This document shows, one piece after another, positions 4,615 through 44,600 of a stretch of 50,935 nt of DNA. The stretch covers positions 1-50,935 of the forward strand of contig CACGLH010000010.1 in the NCBI GenBank assembly GCA_902573735.1, in the 5' to 3' direction. Position 1 is the first letter of the stretch. Every line of letters starts with the position of its first letter. Source of the stretch: an uncultured Alphaproteobacteria bacterium (lineage in GTDB: Bacteria > Pseudomonadota > Alphaproteobacteria > Rhodobacterales > Rhodobacteraceae). Below the pieces are notes generated by a model that saw nothing but the letters and a program-made list of their open reading frames with translations, was not told the DNA's origin and searched no databases. The translations under genes were made by a program, and so were the position numbers.

Positions 4615-5460
4615 ATGATTATATCTAGATTTGCACCTTCACCAACAGGTTTTTTACATTTAGGACATGCGTATTCTGCATTATTGGCTTTTCAACTTGC
4701 TAAAACCAGTAATGGTTTATTTAAATTGAGAATAGAAGATATAGATTCAACTAGATGTAAAAAAATTTATCATAATGAAATCTATTATGATCTTAATTGG
4801 TTAGGAGTTAAATGGGAAAAGGATGTATTTGTTCAATCGGATAGAATTAATATCTATAAAAATTACATAAATTTCCTTAACGACAGAGGTTTAATTTATG
4901 GATGTGAGTGTTCTCGATCAGACATAAATAATGCTTTATTAGCTTTAGATAAACCTTTTAAATATCCCAATGCAGTAACTTATCCAGGAACATGTAGGAA
5001 AAAACAATTAGATATTTGGAGCAATAATGTAAGAATAAATGTTGAAAAAATTAACCATCACCTTGGTAGTCCAACTTTGTTATTTAATGAAAAAGGTACA
5101 GGACCAAATGGTGAAAAAGGTATTCAACAATTTGATTTACAGTGGTTCAAACAAACTCTTGGTGATATTGTAATAGCAAGAAGAGATATAAGAACATCAT
5201 ATCACTTAGCTTCTACAATTGATGATTTTCATCAAAACGTATCACTTGTAACTAGAGGAAACGACCTTTTTTATGACACTCCTGTTCACGTTTTACTTCA
5301 AAAATTATTTAACTTCAAAATTCCTAATTTTTATCATCATAAATTAATAAATGATCAAAACGGGAAAAAGTTATCAAAATCAAAAAATTCTGAAAGCTTA
5401 AATCAATTAAGAGAAAAAGGAATTAGTTTGGATGAAATAAAATCATTAATTGAGCAATAA
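4615..5460 (+). CDS. gluQRS: Glutamyl-Q tRNA(Asp) synthetase
   Basis: GluQRS is a truncated glutamyl-tRNA synthetase paralogue that attaches glutamate to queuosine-34 of tRNA(Asp). The protein has 281 residues from the ATG at 4615; an upstream TTG at 4603 would add only four residues and is less likely. Visible motifs are RFAPSPTGFLHLGHA, containing the class I HIGH-type sequence HLGH, and the KMSKS-type loop KKLSKSKNS near residue 250. A Cys-x-Cys ... Tyr-x-x-x-Cys set (GCECSRSD, then YPGTC) matches the zinc site typical of GluQRS. The protein stops soon after the KMSKS loop and lacks the anticodon-binding domain of full GluRS, which supports the call. It sits 29 bases after trmFO. Confidence 0.93.
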   Translation: MIISRFAPSPTGFLHLGHAYSALLAFQLAKTSNGLFKLRIEDIDSTRCKKIYHNEIYYDLNWLGVKWEKDVFVQSDRINIYKNYINFLNDRGLIYGCECSRSDINNALLALDKPFKYPNAVTYPGTCRKKQLDIWSNNVRINVEKINHHLGSPTLLFNEKGTGPNGEKGIQQFDLQWFKQTLGDIVIARRDIRTSYHLASTIDDFHQNVSLVTRGNDLFYDTPVHVLLQKLFNFKIPNFYHHKLINDQNGKKLSKSKNSESLNQLREKGISLDEIKSLIEQ

Positions 5461-5628
5461 AAAATTTATTTAAATAATTTTGTTAAATATTAATCTTTTT
5501 ACATTTTAAAAAAGTCAAAATTCTAAATAAAGTTATAGGACAACTTGTCTGGTTTTATTTCTTTTCATATTTTATATAGTAAGTAATTCTGTTAAATACT
5601 ATTATAATCCTTTTTGTTTTAAATCTCT

Positions 5629-6042
5629 ATGAAACTTTATTCTGAAAAAATATTAAAGCTTGCAACAGAAATACCTCATGTTGGAAAACTTAATAACGCA
5701 GAAAAAGAAATTAGTCTCAGAACTCCAATATGCGGTTCGAAAGTGTCAATATATATCAATTTTGAAAATGGTATTATTAAAGAATATATGCAAGAAATCA
5801 AAGCATGCGCTTTAGGCCAAGCTTCAGCCTCTATATTTGGATCAAATGCTATTGGCCAAAATTATACTTCTGTTTCTAAATTATTTTACAGTGTAAAAAA
5901 TATGCTTGAAAATAATGGAGATACACCTTTTAAGCCCTTTGAAAAATATGAATTATTGAGACCAGCATATGAATTTAAAAATAGGCATGATTCCATACTA
6001 TTGGTACTAGAAGCCGCCAAAAAAGCCTTCAAAATAAATTAA
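5629..6042 (+). CDS. NifU/IscU-like iron-sulfur cluster scaffold protein
   Basis: The 137-residue protein resembles the NifU N-terminal/IscU-like fold used as a scaffold or carrier for Fe-S clusters. Visible marks are Cys35 in RTPICGSKV and Cys60 in IKACALGQASAS, the conserved loop typical of the alphaproteobacterial NifU-like group. The third cysteine of canonical IscU, near the C-terminus, is absent, so this is a divergent member and not the main IscU. It is separated from gluQRS by 168 bases, so it probably has its own promoter. It is convergent with recG. The exact client proteins cannot be inferred from the context. Confidence 0.8.
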   Translation: MKLYSEKILKLATEIPHVGKLNNAEKEISLRTPICGSKVSIYINFENGIIKEYMQEIKACALGQASASIFGSNAIGQNYTSVSKLFYSVKNMLENNGDTPFKPFEKYELLRPAYEFKNRHDSILLVLEAAKKAFKIN

Positions 6043-6229
6043 AAAAAATTAAAAATTTAGAAATATGATAAATATCAAATAATTTATTATAAAAATAAAA
6101 ATACTATAAGCTGAACTAAATAAAAATATTTTCAGAAGGTTTAAAAAATAATGAAACATATTGGCATAAATTTTTGTTCTTGTTTTGTTCTTTAACACCT
6201 AGCATTCTTTTTTAGATACTGCAAGTATT

Positions 6230-8323
6230 TTATCCTGTTTCAAGAAGTGACAGCGACTTATCTTTATTCATCAAATGTAAAAGAATTCTTATATTTTCAC
6301 CATCTTTAGATTTAAGATTTCTATTATTTTTTATAATTTCACTTGCATCCTCATGTGCATAATAAAGTAAATCTTTATCAAATTCTAAATTTGCAATTTT
6401 AAACTTTGGGATACCTGATTGCTGTGGTCCAATAGGATTTCCTCCTCCACGCATTAATAAATCTTTCTCTGCAATATCAAATCCATTATCAAATTTTCTC
6501 AAGACCTCCAACCTTTCTTTACCTTGATTGCTGACATTTTTTGAATAGATCAAAATACAATTCGATTTTTTTTCTCCCCTACCGACTCTTCCCCTTAATT
6601 GGTGTAACTGCGCTAATCCAAATCTTTCTGCAGCTTCAATAATCATTACATTTGCATTAGGCACATCTATTCCTACTTCAATAACAGTTGTTGCCAAAAG
6701 AATTTGAATACTTCCAGCCTTGAATGACGTCATTATGTCACTTTTTTGGTCCTCTGACATTTTACCATGCAAAGTTTCAATTTTAATATTTGGAAGAAAT
6801 TTATTGAGTATAGAAAGCCTTTTTTCAATGGCTATTAATTCAGATTTTTCACCATCTTCTATTAATGGGCATACCCAATATGCTTGAGCTCCATTATTAC
6901 AAATTTCAAATAATCTAGAAATGAGTTTGTCTATTTTTTTTTCAGAAATGATAGATGTGTCTATTTTTTTTCTATTTAATGGTTTATCAAATATTCTCGA
7001 AATATCCATATCTCCATAGTTTGCAAGCTCTAACGTTCTTGGAATTGGTGTAGCTGTCATTACCAATATATCTAAATTTTCACCTTTTTGTATAAGATCG
7101 TGGCGTTGTTTTACACCAAACTTATGTTGTTCATCAACAATAACCAATTCAAGTTTTTTAAATAGAACCCCCTTTTGAAAAAGTGCATGAGTACCAATAA
7201 TTAAATCTGCTTTACCTGATTTTATGATTTCTAGAGTTTCTTTTTTCTCTTTAGTTTTCATTTTACCTGTTAATAATACAACGCTAATTCCAGCATCTTT
7301 TGTATATTGAAGAAAATTAATAAAATGTTGTTTAGCTAATATATCAGTTGGAACCATTAAGGCAGATTGACCTCTATTTTCAGCAACTAATATCATTGCA
7401 AATAATGCAACTAATGTTTTACCCGAACCAACATCTCCTTGGATCAATCTGTACATTCTATCAGTTTTCGATAGATCAGATTGAATTTCAGCAATACATA
7501 ATTCTTGAGATTTTGTTAATGAAAAAGGTAATTTCCTCCTAATCAAAGTGGAAATTCTATGAGTTGAAATTCTTCTTTTTTTTTTATTTTTTTTTGAGAA
7601 ATTTCTTGCTATTAACAAACTCAGTTGATGACTAAATAGCTCATCATAAGCTAATCTTAATCTAAAATAAGAGTTTAAAGATAAGTCATTTATTGTTTTT
7701 GGACTATGTATTCTTTTTAAACTACTGGCATGATCTATCCAATTCATAGATTTCAGTCTTTTTTTACAAATCCATTCATATGAATTGATTGATTTTGGCA
7801 ATAGTTGAAGAATTTGATTCACACAATTAAAAAATACTTTTTGAGATATGCCTTTTGTAAGAGAATAAATAGGTTCAATTTCTGGAATTTTATCTAAATC
7901 ATTTATTGTTTCTATATAATCAGGGTGAATAATTTGGAAATTATCTTTATATTTTTGTAATTTTCCTGATACAATTCGTTCTTGATTAATGGGTAAATTT
8001 CTTTTGATCCAATCATTTTTAGCATTAAAAAAAATCAAATTTATTTGATTAAATCCATCGGTTACTTCAATGCTAATTGGTCCTTTAAAATTTTTAAAAT
8101 TATGCTTAACTACTCTTATCTTTAAAATGACTGTTTCATTTTCATTAAAATCATTAATTATTTCTACATGTTTTCTAATTTTTAAACTTGAGGGAAAAGA
8201 ATACAGAAAATCTAAAGGTTTTGATATGCCCAGTTTATGTAAATTGAAAATTGATTTTGGGCCAATTCCTTTTAAGTTTTCTAATTTTCCAAATAATGGA
8301 AATAAAAAATGAGGTCTAAACAT
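6230..8323 (-). CDS. recG: ATP-dependent DNA helicase RecG
   Basis: RecG is a superfamily 2 helicase that regresses stalled replication forks and migrates Holliday junctions. The 697-residue length is normal. The N-terminal wedge/OB domain begins with the helix-hairpin-helix-like LKGIGPKSIFNLHKLGI. The helicase core shows Walker A (GDVGSGKTLVALF), motif II as DEQH (IVDEQHKFGVKQR), motif III (MTATPIPRTLEL) and motif VI (QLRGRVGRGEKKS). The coding strand contains two very long A tracts (10 and 9 A, opposite the T runs near 7577-7596), yet the frame stays open. This is useful when judging the homopolymer frameshifts elsewhere in the window. ligA lies 41 bases upstream on the same strand. Confidence 0.97.
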   Translation of the reverse strand: MFRPHFLFPLFGKLENLKGIGPKSIFNLHKLGISKPLDFLYSFPSSLKIRKHVEIINDFNENETVILKIRVVKHNFKNFKGPISIEVTDGFNQINLIFFNAKNDWIKRNLPINQERIVSGKLQKYKDNFQIIHPDYIETINDLDKIPEIEPIYSLTKGISQKVFFNCVNQILQLLPKSINSYEWICKKRLKSMNWIDHASSLKRIHSPKTINDLSLNSYFRLRLAYDELFSHQLSLLIARNFSKKNKKKRRISTHRISTLIRRKLPFSLTKSQELCIAEIQSDLSKTDRMYRLIQGDVGSGKTLVALFAMILVAENRGQSALMVPTDILAKQHFINFLQYTKDAGISVVLLTGKMKTKEKKETLEIIKSGKADLIIGTHALFQKGVLFKKLELVIVDEQHKFGVKQRHDLIQKGENLDILVMTATPIPRTLELANYGDMDISRIFDKPLNRKKIDTSIISEKKIDKLISRLFEICNNGAQAYWVCPLIEDGEKSELIAIEKRLSILNKFLPNIKIETLHGKMSEDQKSDIMTSFKAGSIQILLATTVIEVGIDVPNANVMIIEAAERFGLAQLHQLRGRVGRGEKKSNCILIYSKNVSNQGKERLEVLRKFDNGFDIAEKDLLMRGGGNPIGPQQSGIPKFKIANLEFDKDLLYYAHEDASEIIKNNRNLKSKDGENIRILLHLMNKDKSLSLLETG

Positions 8324-8364
8324 TTATAAAAACCTTCCTAATGAATTATATATAATAAAAGGAA

Positions 8365-10506
<2,142 letters not shown>

Positions 10507-20173: not shown

Positions 20174-21590
20174 TTAACCTACCGAAGGGGTAGAAAGTAT
20201 CCATAAACCCAAAAAAGTGTAACAAATCATAAAAATACTTATTGGGAATTGACTAATAAGAAGCGATGATTTTGATTTTAAATATTTTTCACTTATTGAA
20301 TGAGCTAATAAAACTGCAATTACATGTCCAAATACAATAGCAAACGCTTGAATTAACCAAATTATTCTTACAGTTTCAATACTATTAAAAAAACTAGTTG
20401 TCACATGAATATTACCCGTACCAAAGTAATTTGATCCATTATTAAAAGGATCAGAAAGAACTTTATAAAAATATTGAATATTAACTAAAAAGGTAGTTAA
20501 GTAGTGAGCTATATGGTAGGCAATTGCTATAGGCAATAAAGCTATAGAATTAATACCTATTATTTTATTAAATTCAATTTTTTCATAGATAAATTTGTGA
20601 CCTAAATAAATTGTTAATAGAAAAATAAAAAATAAAAAAATTGCAAATGCTAATAAGCCAATTGAATTTTGAAAAATAACAGAGGATCTACCATGAAATT
20701 CTAGTGGATTGATATTGATAATTTTAAACCAAAAAAAAGTTTCATTTAATCCATCAAATGAAAGTGTTGCTAAAATTATAGCTAAGAATAAAACAGTTAA
20801 AGGTGGTAAATAATTAATATGAGTTAATTGAGATCCAAAAAAGCCAAAATAAGCTTTTCTATTTTCAAACCAAAACAAGGATAATTTTGATAACATACCA
20901 AAAAAAACAGAAAAACATTCCCCTTTTTTTTAGCCATTCTATCCCAAACAACCAGATACAAAAAAAATTCAACAAAAAATACAAACATACTACAGTAGCT
21001 AACCTGTCTGGATCATCAGGAGCTATATCGACAAGCATGAATAATGAAAAAAGAAGAAAAAACAAAGAGGGTATTACTAGAGTTAAATTATTGTCTAATT
21101 TAAAAAAAAAATTATTTTTGAATAAAATCTTCCCAATACCATACCAAGGATTTAAAAAGGACCATATGTTTCCAAATATCATTTGAGCTAAAGGCATAAC
21201 TAAAAACCAAACTGACCAAATGAAAAGTGAAAGAGGGTTAACTAATGGATCTCTTGAACCTGTAAAACCCAAGACAATTAAAATAATTAAAAGAAAAAAA
21301 CTTATTAAACTCATAAAAACTTTAATTGAGTTCAAATCAATTGAAGAGATAAAATTAAAACGTTTAAAAAAAATTATTTCATAAGTTCTGAAGAGTTTGC
21401 CAATAAATGCTTTTGGTGAAATATAGGTAATTAAAATAGTTAAAACTAAAACAGATATACCAGCAGGAATATAAATTTCTGTAGGCAACAATAATGTTAA
21501 TGCTCTTTCCGAAACATGGGCATAAGAAATTTCAAAACTCAATAATAATATTAAGAGAAATAATGTGATGTTTATTATCATAAATCTCAT
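20174..21590 (-). CDS. Polytopic membrane protein, homologues sometimes labelled fenitrothion hydrolase; broken by a one-base frameshift
   Basis: Two overlapping reading frames (21590 to 20865 and 20896 to 20174) are the halves of one gene. The break is at an A8 tract of the coding strand (T run at 20924-20931). Removing one A gives a continuous 471-codon frame reading WLKKGECFSVFFGML across the join, which matches the RGExFSVFFGM-like stretch I recall in full-length relatives. The protein has an N-terminal signal-like segment ending in YAHVSERA, then the motif TLLLPTEIYIPAGI, and about a dozen hydrophobic segments. Relatives are sometimes annotated as fenitrothion hydrolase; the natural function is unknown. 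The gene lies 85 bases upstream of the liv operon on the same strand. Family recall is from memory; the frame restoration is directly visible. Confidence 0.7.
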
Positions 21591-37968: not shown

Positions 37969-40632
37969 TTATTTTTCATTAATATAAAATTCAACTTTTG
38001 ATATTAATTTTTCTGTATTTAATATTTCATTACCACCGCCTTGAGCAAAGTCTAATCTGCCGCCTCCTTTTCCATTAGTTAATTGGTTTAAAATTTTTAC
38101 AATGTCTTGAGCTGAATATTTAGCGGTTATGTTATCGGTTACCCCGACCGTATAGATAGTTTTTTTAACATGACTAGATAAATTTAAGATAATACATTTA
38201 TCAAATTTTTGTTTGTATTCATCCGTCAAAGACCTCATCTCTTTAATTTGCAAGTTGTCTGATTTGTTAACAACAAATGATATACCATTTATGATCTTGA
38301 CATTTTTATCACGCCCTAAATCAGAATTGGATGGTTTAGTTTTCTCTAGTTGGTCTATTTTCTGAGTTAATGTTTTCTTTTCAGTTAATAAAGAGTTTAA
38401 CCTTTCATCTACTGCTTCAATTGGAATTTTTAAGATTGAAGTAATTTTATCTATATAAAGTCTATTTAATTGCAAATATTTTATAGCATTCATTCCTGTG
38501 AGAGCTTCAATTCTACGAACACCTGAACTAGAAGCCATTTCAGATTTTATTATAAAAGATCCTATCATTCCAGTTCTATGTACATGAGTTCCACCACAAA
38601 GTTCCATTGAGAATCTTTCTATCAAAGGAGAAGATTTTGCATCCCAAACAGAATTAAAACCCATCAATACCACTCTTACTTCGTTTTCATATTTTTCACC
38701 AAAAAGAGCCTGAGCTCCTATTTTTTTTGCTTCTTCTAAATCCATTACCCTTGTATCAACTATTGTATCTTCTAAGATATGTTTATTTACAATTTGTTCC
38801 ACTTTTTGAATATCATTAGTAGAAATTGGTTTATTACTTGAAAAATCAAATCTTAATCTTTCAGAATCATTCAAAGACCCTCTTTGATTAACTTGAACAC
38901 CAACTACATCTTTTAAAGCTTGATGCATTAAATGAGTTGCTGAATGATTAGCTGCTATTGATTTTCTTCTATTAGCATTAACAACTAGATTTACTAAATC
39001 ACCATTGTAAATTTTCCCCTTACTAACAATAATTTTATGAACCATCAAACCTGATATTTTTCTTACTTTTTCAATTTTCGCTTCGAAATTTTCGTTACTT
39101 ATTATACCAGTATCTGAAACTTGACCTCCACTTTCTGCATAAAAAGGTGATTGATTGAAAATTAACTCTGCGGACTTACCATTTTCAATTTTATCTGCAA
39201 CATTTCCATCTATAACAATTGCAAGTATCTTAGCTTGCGAATTCAAAGAATTGTAACCAAGAAATTCAGTTGGATCTAAGTTATTGGCTAAATCGATCCA
39301 TACTTGTTCAATTATTTTTTCTCCTGAACCTATCCATGCATTTCTTGCTAGTCGTTTTTGTTTATCCATTGATAAATTAAATCTTTCGATATCAACTTCT
39401 ATATCAATATCTCTGACTGCGTCTTGAGTTAGATCAATTGGGAAACCATATGTGTCATATAATTTAAAAGCTACTTCACCAGAAAATTTTTCTCCCTTAT
39501 TTAACCTACTTATTTCCTTATCCAATAACTTTAAGCCTCTATCCAAAGTGGATCTAAATTTGATTTCTTCATTTAGTAAACTCTCTTCAATTAATTGTTT
39601 TGCTTCAATCAATTCTGGGAATGCCGCTCCCATTTCTCGTGTTAAAGATGCAACCATTTTATAAAGCATAGGCTCTTTTACTCCCAAAAAGTGAATATGC
39701 CTCATAGCTCTTCTCATTATTCTTCTTAAAACATATCCTCTTCCATCATTAGTGGGAAAAATACCTTCTGCTATTAAAAATGATATAGACCTTATATGAT
39801 CAGCAATAACTCTATGATGAATATTATACTTTCCATTTACTTTTTGGCTTGAGAGATTTGCAGATTCATCAATAAGTGCCTTCATTAAGTCAGTATTATA
39901 GTTATCGTGGGTGTTTTGAAGAACTGCACCCATTCTTTCTAATCCCATTCCAGTATCGATGGAGGGTCTAGGAAGATCTTCTCTTTTATCATTATCTAAC
40001 TGGTCATACTGCATGAAAACTAGATTCCAAATTTCAACAAATCGATCACCATCTTCATTTGGGGAACCAGGAGGACCTCCAGCAATATTAGAACCATGGT
40101 CAAAAAATATCTCTGAGCATGGTCCACAAGGACCAGTTGCTCCCATTGACCAAAAGTTATCACTAGATTTAATTTTGATAATTTGAGAATCAGAAAGACC
40201 AGCATATTTTTTCCAAATATCCATTGCTTCATTATCTGTATGATAAACAGTAACCAATAATCTATTTTTGGGTAAAGAAAACTCTTTTGTAATTAAATCC
40301 CAAGCTAGGGGTATGGCTGTTTCTTTGAAATAATTTCCAAAGGAAAAATTGCCTAACATTTCAAAAAAAGTGTGATGTCTGGATGTATATCCTACATTGT
40401 CTAAGTCATTATGCTTTCCACCTGCCCTTAGACATTTTTGACTTGTTACAGCATTATTATATGAACGACTTTCAAGCCCTGTAAAAACATTTTTAAATTG
40501 AACCATTCCAGAGTTAGTGAACATCAAAGTTGGGTCATTACTAGGAACAAGTGCAGAGCTTTTAACTTCCTCATGCCCGTGTCTTTTAAAATAATTGATA
40601 AAAGTAGATCTAATTTCAGCTAAGCCTGTCAT
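37969..40632 (-). CDS. alaS: Alanyl-tRNA synthetase
   Basis: AlaRS charges tRNA(Ala) and edits misacylated seryl and glycyl forms. The 887-residue length is normal. The class II aminoacylation core has FTNSGMVQFKNVFTG (motif 1 region), RHHTFFEMLGNFSFGNYF (motif 2) and GMGLERMGAVLQ (motif 3). The editing domain has the zinc-type motifs NHSATHLMHQAL and ELCGGTHVHRTG. The C-terminal DHHA1 domain ends in GKGGGRLDFAQGGG. It is 68 bases downstream of recA on the same strand, a common recA-alaS arrangement in alphaproteobacteria. Confidence 0.98.
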   Translation of the reverse strand: MTGLAEIRSTFINYFKRHGHEEVKSSALVPSNDPTLMFTNSGMVQFKNVFTGLESRSYNNAVTSQKCLRAGGKHNDLDNVGYTSRHHTFFEMLGNFSFGNYFKETAIPLAWDLITKEFSLPKNRLLVTVYHTDNEAMDIWKKYAGLSDSQIIKIKSSDNFWSMGATGPCGPCSEIFFDHGSNIAGGPPGSPNEDGDRFVEIWNLVFMQYDQLDNDKREDLPRPSIDTGMGLERMGAVLQNTHDNYNTDLMKALIDESANLSSQKVNGKYNIHHRVIADHIRSISFLIAEGIFPTNDGRGYVLRRIMRRAMRHIHFLGVKEPMLYKMVASLTREMGAAFPELIEAKQLIEESLLNEEIKFRSTLDRGLKLLDKEISRLNKGEKFSGEVAFKLYDTYGFPIDLTQDAVRDIDIEVDIERFNLSMDKQKRLARNAWIGSGEKIIEQVWIDLANNLDPTEFLGYNSLNSQAKILAIVIDGNVADKIENGKSAELIFNQSPFYAESGGQVSDTGIISNENFEAKIEKVRKISGLMVHKIIVSKGKIYNGDLVNLVVNANRRKSIAANHSATHLMHQALKDVVGVQVNQRGSLNDSERLRFDFSSNKPISTNDIQKVEQIVNKHILEDTIVDTRVMDLEEAKKIGAQALFGEKYENEVRVVLMGFNSVWDAKSSPLIERFSMELCGGTHVHRTGMIGSFIIKSEMASSSGVRRIEALTGMNAIKYLQLNRLYIDKITSILKIPIEAVDERLNSLLTEKKTLTQKIDQLEKTKPSNSDLGRDKNVKIINGISFVVNKSDNLQIKEMRSLTDEYKQKFDKCIILNLSSHVKKTIYTVGVTDNITAKYSAQDIVKILNQLTNGKGGGRLDFAQGGGNEILNTEKLISKVEFYINEK

Positions 40633-40700: not shown

Positions 40701-41775
40701 TTAATTTTTTTCTCTTGAAGAAGTATCTTCAATCAAATTTGTAACAGAATTATTATTTAAACCATTAGCTACTCTTATTTTGTCTTCAATTTCTTGAGCA
40801 ATATCAATATTTTCCATTAAAAATTTCTTTGCATTTTCCCTACCTTGACCAATTCTTTCATCTCCATAAGAAAACCAAGCACCAGATTTTTCTATAATTT
40901 CAAACTTTACTCCTAAATCAATGATTTCGCCCACTTTTGAAATTCCTTCCCCATACATAATATCGAATTCAACCTGTTTAAATGGTGGGGATACTTTATT
41001 CTTAACAACTTTTACTCTAGTTGAATTACCTATAACCTCATCACGATCTTTGAGTGCACCAATTCTTCTAATATCTAGTCTCACAGAAGCATAGAATTTC
41101 AAAGCATTTCCGCCAGTTGTGGTTTCAGGGCTACCAAACATAACACCAATTTTCATTCTTATCTGATTGATAAAAATTACCATACAGTTTGATCTACTAA
41201 TTGATCCCGTAAGTTTCCTCATTGCTTGACTCATTAATCTTGCTTGCGCTCCAACTTGAGCATCTCCCATATCACCCTCTAACTCTGAACGTGGAGTTAG
41301 AGCTGCAACAGAATCCACCACAACTAAAGAAACTGCTCCTGATCTTACTAATGTTTCAGTTATTTCTAAAGCTTGCTCACCAGTATCTGGCTGGGAAATT
41401 AATAACTCGTCCAAATTTACCCCTAGTTTTTTTTGCATAACCAGGATCTAAAGCATGTTCAGCATCTACAAATGCACATATTCCTTCTTTTTTTTGCTCT
41501 TCAGCGACTACGTGTAGGGCTAGTGTAGTTTTTCCTGAGCTTTCAGGTCCATAAATTTCGATTATTCTTCCTTTTGGGAGTCCCCCAATGCCCAAAGCAA
41601 TATCCAAACTAATTGATCCTGTGGAAATAGCTTCAATATCAATAACAGGATTATCTTGACCAAGTTTCATAATTGAACCTTTGCCAAAATTTCTTTCAAT
41701 TTGAGAAAGGGCCGTTTCTAGTGCTTTATCTTTATCCATTGATACTCTTTCTGATAAATTAACTAACTTTGTCAT
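40701..41775 (-). CDS. recA: Recombinase RecA, interrupted by a one-base frameshift at an A8 tract
   Basis: RecA catalyses strand exchange in recombinational repair and triggers LexA self-cleavage in the SOS response. The sequence holds both halves in different frames: the first from 41775 ([11 protein letters not shown], Walker [14 protein letters not shown], then [16 protein letters not shown]), the second reading [18 protein letters not shown] to the end at 40701. The break is at the T run 41427-41434 (A8 on the coding strand). Removing one A restores [14 protein letters not shown], the exact family sequence, and a frame of 357 codons, the normal RecA length. Second-half marks are [17 protein letters not shown] (Walker B) and [14 protein letters not shown] (L2 region). 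An SOS box lies upstream and alaS downstream. The gene is otherwise intact, so the indel may be a sequencing error, a real polymorphism, or rescued by slippage. Confidence 0.9.
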
Positions 41776-41857: not shown

Positions 41858-41872
41858 GTTCACTATATGTTC
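41858..41872. promoter_or_regulatory. LexA (SOS) box upstream of recA
   Basis: GTTC at 41858-41861, a 7-base spacer and GTTC at 41869-41872 match the alphaproteobacterial LexA operator GTTC-N7-GTTC exactly. It lies 83-97 bases upstream of the recA start and after the rsmB stop, as expected for damage-inducible recA control. The direct-repeat form differs from the palindromic CTGT-N8-ACAG of gammaproteobacteria and so also supports the lineage call. Confidence 0.75.
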
Positions 41873-41907: not shown

Positions 41908-43119
41908 TTATCTTTTTTTAAGAATAGCAAAAAAAAATCCGTCACTAGCATTTATTGGGTGGTACAACTGTTTGTTAACAAGTGAAAATTTTTGATTATT
42001 CATTAGAAATTTTTTTACAACCAATTCTCCCTCGTCTTCTAATAATGAGCAAACAACATATATCAAAAAACCACTTTTTTTTAAATAGCTACATGAATTT
42101 TGCATGATTTTATATTGATTTTTACTTAAGGTTTTTATTTTTTGATCATTTATTTCCCATTTTGTCTTTGGATCCCTTCTCCATGTACCAGTTCCAGAGC
42201 ATGGTGCATCAATGAAGATAATATCAAAAAAATTTCCATATTTATTTAAGCTTCTAGAATCAATAATTTTTATTCTGGCTCCTGCTCTATTTGATCTAAG
42301 TAAAAGATTACTTAATTTTAATGTATTGACGTCATGAGCAAATATATCTGCATTATTTTTGAGCTTTGAAGCAATTGCTAGAGATTTACCACCACTTCCT
42401 GCACACAAATCTAATATCCTTTTTCCTGGGGAAATTTCATCGACCTCTGTTGTTAATTGAGAAGACAAATCTTGTAATTCAACGTTACCTAGTTGATAGC
42501 TTGATGATTTTTTTAAAAATTGCTCACCACTTTTAATTCTAAGAGCACTTTTTGAAGCAGAACAATATTCACATATAATATTTTCTTTTTCTAAATTTGA
42601 TTTTTCGTCTTTTAAATTTGTTTTTAAATTATTTATCCTTAAGTATATCGGTGCTCTTTCTAAAAAAATTTTCATTACTTTATCAAAATCATTTCCCAAT
42701 GTTGTTTTGAGTTTTTTTTCCAAAAATTCTGGATAACCTAATAAAATATTTTTGGGGGCTTTTTTGATATGGTCATTTATTTTGTTAAGAATTAATAATT
42801 CCTTATTTTTTATAGCTGGTAAAAAATATTTATTATCAACAATATCACACAATGAAAATGTATCTCTTTTATAAATATAGAGATAAGAAAGAACTAAAAT
42901 TCGACCATTTTCATAATAATCATTTATTTGAAAAGGATAAAATAGAATAAGCCTTTTTCTTAAAATATCAAAAATTATGTCTCTGATACTTCTTCTATCA
43001 TTGGATCCAGCAAAACGGTTATTTTTAAACCATTCTTTAAGTGCTTTTTCTATTGGGATTCCATTGATATAATTGTCTAATATGTCTATTGCGGCACATG
43101 CACGAGAAATTTGTAACAT
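41908..43119 (-). CDS. rsmB: 16S rRNA (cytosine-C5) methyltransferase RsmB
   Basis: RsmB methylates C967 of 16S rRNA. The 403-residue protein has an N-terminal NusB-like RNA-binding domain (AIDILDNYINGIPIEKAL, then DRRSIRDIIFDILRKR) and a C-terminal NSUN-type catalytic domain. The SAM site is DLCAGSGGKSLAIAS, the first active cysteine is in DAPCSGTGTWRRDPKTKW, and the catalytic cysteine is in YVVCSLLEDEGE. It follows guaB by 26 bases; recA is next downstream but has its own SOS-type control. Confidence 0.92.
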   Translation of the reverse strand: MLQISRACAAIDILDNYINGIPIEKALKEWFKNNRFAGSNDRRSIRDIIFDILRKRLILFYPFQINDYYENGRILVLSYLYIYKRDTFSLCDIVDNKYFLPAIKNKELLILNKINDHIKKAPKNILLGYPEFLEKKLKTTLGNDFDKVMKIFLERAPIYLRINNLKTNLKDEKSNLEKENIICEYCSASKSALRIKSGEQFLKKSSSYQLGNVELQDLSSQLTTEVDEISPGKRILDLCAGSGGKSLAIASKLKNNADIFAHDVNTLKLSNLLLRSNRAGARIKIIDSRSLNKYGNFFDIIFIDAPCSGTGTWRRDPKTKWEINDQKIKTLSKNQYKIMQNSCSYLKKSGFLIYVVCSLLEDEGELVVKKFLMNNQKFSLVNKQLYHPINASDGFFFAILKKR

Positions 43120-43145: not shown

Positions 43146-44600
43146 CTAATTATTGCTATAGTTTGGAGACTCATTTGTTATTCTAACGTCATGTACATGA
43201 CTTTCAGACAAACCAGATCCTGTAATTTTAATAAACTTACAGTCTTTCTTCATTAGCTTTATATTTTCATTACCAGTGTATCCCATTGACGCCTTTAACC
43301 CACCAACTAATTGGTAAATAATTTTATTTACTGAACCTTTATATGGAACCTGTCCCTCTATTCCTTCAGGTATGAGTTTATCAGCTTGTATATTTTTTTG
43401 AAAATATCTATCAGCAGATCCCCTAGCCATAGCACCTATAGAACCCATTCCTCTATAGTTTTTAAAACTCCTTCCTTGGTATAAAGTTATCTCCCCAGGA
43501 GATTCATCGGTACCTGCTAATAAGGAGCCAACCATAGCACAAGAGGCACCAGAGGCTATTGATTTTGCAAAATCCCCAGAATATCTAATTCCACCATCTG
43601 CAATTACGGGTATATTATGTCTTTCAGCTTCTTTAGCACAATTGATTATCGCAGTTATTTGTGGCATTCCTACACCAGCAATAATTCTTGTGGTACATAT
43701 TGATCCTGGACCTATACCTACTTTAATACCATCAGCACCAACACCTATTAATTCTTTAGTGGCTTCTGCAGTTACAACATTACCAGCAATAATTTGCGTA
43801 TCGGAAAATTCTTTTTTTAATCTCTTTACTGCTTCTATAACTTCTACAGAATGACCATGAGCTGTATCTATAACAATTATGTCTACTCCTGCTTCAATTA
43901 AAGATGCAGAACGTTCAAAACCATTATCACCAACTGAAGATGCCGCAGCACATCTCAATCTACCCAACCTATCTTTACATGCGAAAGGATTTAGAACGGA
44001 TTTTTCAATATCCTTTATTGTGAGCAATCCAGACAAAAAATTTTTATTATCAACAACTAAAAGTTTTTCTATTCTCCTTTTTGCCATAATATCTTTTGCT
44101 TCTTTTGTATTAATTGGCTCTTTTACAATTGCTAAATTTTCTTTAGTCATAATATCACCAACTCTTACATTATTATCTTCCAAAAAACGAATATCTCTAT
44201 TAGTTAAAATCCCAAGTACTTTATTTGCTTTATTAACTACAGGAAAACCAGTGATGTTATATTTTTTTGCAATTTTTTTTGCAGTTTTCACTGTATCATC
44301 AAAATTTAAAGTAATTGGATTATAAACAATACCACTCTCAAATCTTTTAACTGCAGATACATATTTCACTTGTTTACTGATACTTAAATTTCTATGTATA
44401 ACACCAATTCCACCACACTGTGCCATTGCAATTGCCATATTAGTTTCAGTAACAGTATCCATTGCTGATGAAATTAGTGGAATATTAAGTTTTATATCCT
44501 TAGTGACAAAAGTTTCGGTATTTACCATGTCAGGTGTAACTGCTGATTTTGCAGGTACAAGTAGAACATCATCAAAAGTTATAGCATTTTCTAATTCCAT
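43146..44600 (-). CDS. guaB: Inosine-5'-monophosphate dehydrogenase
   Basis: GuaB oxidises IMP to XMP, the committed step of GMP synthesis. The 484-residue protein starts ITFDDVLLVPAKSAV and has a CBS-domain pair (for example KYNITGFPVVNKANKVLGIL and RIEKLLVVDNKNFLSGLL). The catalytic cysteine loop is VGIGPGSICTTRIIAGVG, and the flap follows in FKNYRGMGSIGAMARGS. Length and motifs are normal. It follows rlmE by 43 bases and precedes rsmB by 26 bases. Confidence 0.98.
   Translation of the reverse strand: MELENAITFDDVLLVPAKSAVTPDMVNTETFVTKDIKLNIPLISSAMDTVTETNMAIAMAQCGGIGVIHRNLSISKQVKYVSAVKRFESGIVYNPITLNFDDTVKTAKKIAKKYNITGFPVVNKANKVLGILTNRDIRFLEDNNVRVGDIMTKENLAIVKEPINTKEAKDIMAKRRIEKLLVVDNKNFLSGLLTIKDIEKSVLNPFACKDRLGRLRCAAASSVGDNGFERSASLIEAGVDIIVIDTAHGHSVEVIEAVKRLKKEFSDTQIIAGNVVTAEATKELIGVGADGIKVGIGPGSICTTRIIAGVGMPQITAIINCAKEAERHNIPVIADGGIRYSGDFAKSIASGASCAMVGSLLAGTDESPGEITLYQGRSFKNYRGMGSIGAMARGSADRYFQKNIQADKLIPEGIEGQVPYKGSVNKIIYQLVGGLKASMGYTGNENIKLMKKDCKFIKITGSGLSESHVHDVRITNESPNYSNN

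Follow-up and report, generated by a model that had tools for sequence, protein, structure and literature searches.

The recA gene of this Rhodobacteraceae-like bacterium is divided between two reading frames at a run of eight adenines (A8), and comparison of the sequence with that of its relatives suggests that the split is probably a technical insertion of one base into the draft genome, most likely with no biological basis. In the living species, recA would then probably be undamaged and subject to normal selection, the private +1 having arisen in the A run during amplification, sequencing and assembly of DNA that probably came from one cell.

The window, the whole stretch of DNA that was analysed (50,935 bases), is all of contig C10 of a draft genome (G000) that comprises 1.93 Mb in 61 contigs and is 77% complete. 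Two ORFs on its minus strand correspond to the N-terminal third and the C-terminal two thirds of RecA (Table 1); the initial annotation had described them as halves of the protein. Profile matches agree with this assignment: the first ORF aligns with positions 1–103 of TIGR02012 and 1–99 of PF00154, and the second with positions 101–320 of 321 (386 bits) and 97–262 of 262, respectively, such that the two pieces jointly cover positions 1–320 of the 321 in TIGR02012 and 1–262 of the 262 in PF00154, in two frames. The GPESSGKT motif lies in the first ORF and the VVVDSVAAL stretch in the second; these we take to be the nucleotide-binding motifs of RecA. No single uninterrupted frame carries both, the frame changing at the A8 run, whose position and strand were read directly in the window and are as the initial annotation gave them. 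No second match to RecA (PF00154) was found in the window's 77% complete genome.

Table 1. Features of the window bearing on the split recA gene and on a second split gene.
Feature	Coordinates	Strand	Remarks
ORF with N-terminal part of RecA	41377-41775	minus	132 aa, of which ~116 are RecA and the remainder an out-of-frame tail
ORF with C-terminal part of RecA	40701-41438	minus	245 aa
A8 run, site of frame change in recA	41427-41434	minus (coding strand)	A7 in G010
SOS-type box GAAC-N7-GAAC upstream of recA	41858-41872	minus	GAACATATAGTGAAC
alaS-like gene adjoining recA	37969-40632	minus	neighbour control
Second split gene	20174-21590	minus	ORFs 20865-21590 and 20174-20896, in two frames
A8 run at second split	20924-20931	minus (coding strand)	A5-G-A in G010, one base shorter

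The initial annotation had pointed to close relatives as an informative comparison, and they show an undivided gene. The nearest relative among the genomes compared is isolate AH-287-M23 (G010, L033); a BLASTN alignment of recA together with 120 upstream bases against this genome (L004/L033) gave 95.3% identity over 1196 columns with 1 gap, and its recA has A7 at the run and one frame of 357 amino acids. All eight same-genus genomes with a match carry recA as one open frame. When the run was located by peptide in these eight genes, the longest A run at the site was found to be A7 in G010 and G003, A6 in G006 and G009, and A3 in G002, G004, G005 and G007; the presence of A7 in G003 as well shows that this length is not peculiar to the closest lineage of the window. 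The other three of the 11 same-genus genomes (G001, G008 and G011) gave no recA match. The adjoining alaS-like gene (a name that we presume from its sequence) also lacks a full match in all three, so the absence of recA looks like assembly gaps, and loss of recA as a trait of the genus was rejected on the same observation. A candidate second copy of recA in G010 was likewise rejected, the weak match concerned (E 1.3e-4) being that of the query's out-of-frame tail, inside recA itself.

The two RecA pieces were compared separately with the gene of G010 over 355 codons, those at the run being excluded. The comparison yielded 45 synonymous and 5 non-synonymous differences, with dS of 0.221, dN of 0.006 and a dN/dS of ~0.03. 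One of the five residue differences, at position 292, falls on the window's branch and another, at position 72, on that of G010, with the other three unplaced at residue level. Neither the raised dN/dS nor the additional lesions of a pseudogene under relaxed selection were found: no decay of recA is visible against G010 at this dN/dS, and the alignment contains no further gap. The low dN next to the much higher dS indicates that selection on recA persisted until very recently.

An intact SOS box upstream of recA had been reported in the initial annotation, and it stands (Table 1); the GAAC-N7-GAAC form, presumably the alphaproteobacterial LexA site, is kept upstream of recA in 9 of the 9 genus loci examined, the window counted. 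The window's genome also has an open lexA frame. Two further differences from G010 were seen nearby. At 41908–41913 on the minus strand, at the end of a methyltransferase-like gene, there is a one-base difference (T7 versus T6 on the plus strand), which at 41913 alters only the last codons of that neighbouring gene. The guaB-like gene is full length in the window and in G006, while that of G010 is without ~976 bases relative to window positions 43568–44543 (L137, contig C5 of G010); ~8 bases are common at the deletion junction, and the deletion is possibly one of amplification or assembly.

The recA split is not the only one in the contig. The initial annotation had seen no other coding damage, which proved wrong: the gene at 20174–21590 is likewise divided, again at an A8 run. 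Its counterpart is a single ORF of 468–471 aa in G010, G006 and G009, and it encodes a hydrophobic-looking protein, neither piece of which has a Pfam match. A base rate for such splits was obtained by comparing ORFs no shorter than 100 aa across partial stretches of six genus drafts (~832 kb), with one G006 row (joined coverage 0.08) removed from the split count as a non-orthologue. Split loci numbered 6 of 846 (G000, 2 of 271; G010, 1 of 130; G006, 2 of 203; G001, 1 of 70; G009, 0 of 49; and G005, 0 of 123). Every one of the six is private: the locus was unbroken wherever it could be compared, in one to four further genomes. Private frameshifts were found in three of the five sister drafts. 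The two splits of G000 share one contig (C10), as do the two of G006 (C17); such clustering, noticed post hoc, is what local quality problems would give and is a weak pointer to them. Among the sister drafts, a 677-aa gene of G010 (L208, contig C19, ~5149–5643) has two one-base indels that shift the frame and then restore it, the two frameshifted genes of G006 (L219, contig C17, ~4816–9047) are ~3.5 kb apart, and one of the G006 splits likewise consists of an A run lengthened by one, from A8 to A9.

These numbers can be set against a published error rate. Three papers state error rates of 3.0 indels and 5.0 mismatches per 100 kb for the single-cell workflow that produced at least one of the sister genomes (PMC6122165, PMC8443664, PMC11247762); all three cite one earlier benchmark and thus amount to one test, not three, and the consulted part of PMC5519541 contains no indel figure. 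At 3.0 indels per 100 kb, ~1.5 would be expected in the window, enough for both splits, and ~8 in the 271,882 bases of tested G000 loci, versus the two frameshifts found there; the six private frameshifts among 846 loci over ~832 kb also lie below the published workflow rate. The two splits among the 271 G000 loci are thus private and no more frequent than the error of the method, provided that this genome was made by it, in which case no biology is needed for the splits. We infer that the genome was amplified from a single cell and that the error arose at that stage. AG-414 is listed in a table of PMC6122165, a single-cell study, and L034 (AG-414-O15) is a contig of G006. Against a technical error, the record of the nearest relative, L033 (AH-287-M23), is titled 'MAG', and a consensus error at A8 should be less likely in an Illumina MAG; the indel benchmark was run on other organisms; and a +1 in an A run is also a product of real replication slippage. 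Inverted duplications, as expected from amplified single cells, were absent from the stretches checked, the sole hit being a 120-base repeat inside C1 with 79% identity. A mismatch-repair mutator was considered and rejected, mutS (an 893 aa frame) and mutL (a 647 aa frame) both being open in G000. Of the three causes offered in the initial annotation, the consensus error is the best supported, because private frameshifts are fewer than the published workflow indel rate predicts, and rescue by transcriptional slippage has the least support.

Second to a technical error, it is possible, though we consider it unlikely, that the insertion is real and very recent in the sampled cell or strain, replication slippage having extended A7 to A8 and inactivated recA to leave two non-functional fragments. 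Slippage in A runs is a standard mutation, the nearest relative has A7 at the same place, the genome yields no second RecA match, and the absence of decay would fit a very recent event. However, recA is kept in the relatives wherever its neighbourhood is assembled, neither lexA nor the SOS box is damaged, and cells without a working recA should be scarce in natural populations; moreover, the other private frameshift of the contig would require an event of its own.

It is decidedly improbable that the A8 allele is real and fixed in the species, with RNA polymerase dropping one A (or adding two) in some transcripts and thereby providing some full-length RecA. We give still less credence to the fuller scenario of an A8 fixed in a small-genome marine species, in which RecA would come only from A-dropping transcripts and recombination would proceed on a low RecA dose set by slippage. 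Among published precedents, 12–50% of the transcripts of frameshifted genes in endosymbionts of aphids and ants are corrected where poly(A) runs are long (PMC5009743); Blochmannia vafer has eight genes with such frameshifts, including dnaX and dnaG, and endosymbiont poly(A) frameshifts are reported to be conserved between populations and even species (PMC3017870); and slippage on eight As has been proposed to be productive in the IS elements of two bacterial species (PMC1088944). These precedents favour rescue, as do the conserved RecA protein sequence and the lesion itself, a single indel in an A/T run of an otherwise conserved gene, which is the form that slippage rescue would take. The data of PMC5574713 bear on both sides. 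In favour of rescue, 16 of 57 deletions in Buchnera transcripts were in homopolymers, with a deletion rate that climbs with run length. Against it, homopolymers took 151 of the 157 insertions in Buchnera, insertions prevail in A/T runs in the transcripts of E. coli and Buchnera, and frame-restoring errors went undetected, whereas rescue of recA requires loss of an A or gain of two.

The genome itself also argues against rescue. On the coding strands of 225 genes of the window and the G000 stretches, A8 was observed 156 times versus 111.9 expected from codon shuffling (sd 7.1), and A9 to A11 combined 44 times versus 59.8. Since A8 is commoner than the codon-shuffled expectation, it is not avoided in the genes of this genome, which does not appear to treat it as a hazard, suggesting that A8 is not strongly slippery here. 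A frameshift rescued by slippage would be expected to be kept in relatives, yet that of recA is common to none of the eight same-genus recA genes; nor, in the stretches compared, did any of the six split loci turn up split in another genome, in contrast to the conserved frameshifts described for endosymbionts. Nor is there support for the endosymbiont setting that the initial annotation had invoked, the closest named records being uncultured Alphaproteobacteria and Rhodobacteraceae. Ribosomal frameshifting was also set aside: on reading the sequence, slipping by −1 on the A run would miss the second frame, and a +1 shift would be required.

Phase variation of recA, with A7 as the on state and A8 as the off state, is the least credible reading and very improbable: although two of the eight same-genus relatives (G010 and G003) have an A7 run here, the run is not kept in the others (A6 in two of the eight and A3 in four), runs of this kind are common (in the 225 genes, 268 A7 and 156 A8 were counted on the coding strand), and recA does not belong to the typical contingency genes.

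Were the A8 real and rescued, this bacterium, without sign of symbiosis, would depend on slippage for its RecA, which would be surprising. The technical insertion that we favour carries a plainer lesson, namely that an ordinary draft error can yield an apparent headline gene loss; with 6 of 846 genus loci split in one draft only, several conserved genes per genome may look broken.

Loss of recA occurs in reduced symbionts, and the present assembly resembles them in having no uninterrupted recA. Unlike in those symbionts, recA shows no erosion, the SOS box and lexA are intact, and the gene is one base from the frame of its relatives. The poly(A) frameshifts of Buchnera and Blochmannia offer a second parallel, in that an AT-rich genome carries an A-run frameshift in an otherwise intact housekeeping gene; this bacterium differs from them in being Rhodobacteraceae-like with no sign of an endosymbiont, in having a run of only A8, in requiring rescue by a deletion or a +2, and in the absence of the frameshift from the relatives compared. 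The third comparison is with the private homopolymer indels of SAG drafts and, while a SAG origin is here presumed, the likeness extends to a one-base A-run indel in a conserved gene, its restriction to one draft, the presence of more than one such indel per contig, and a rate within the published 3.0 per 100 kb.
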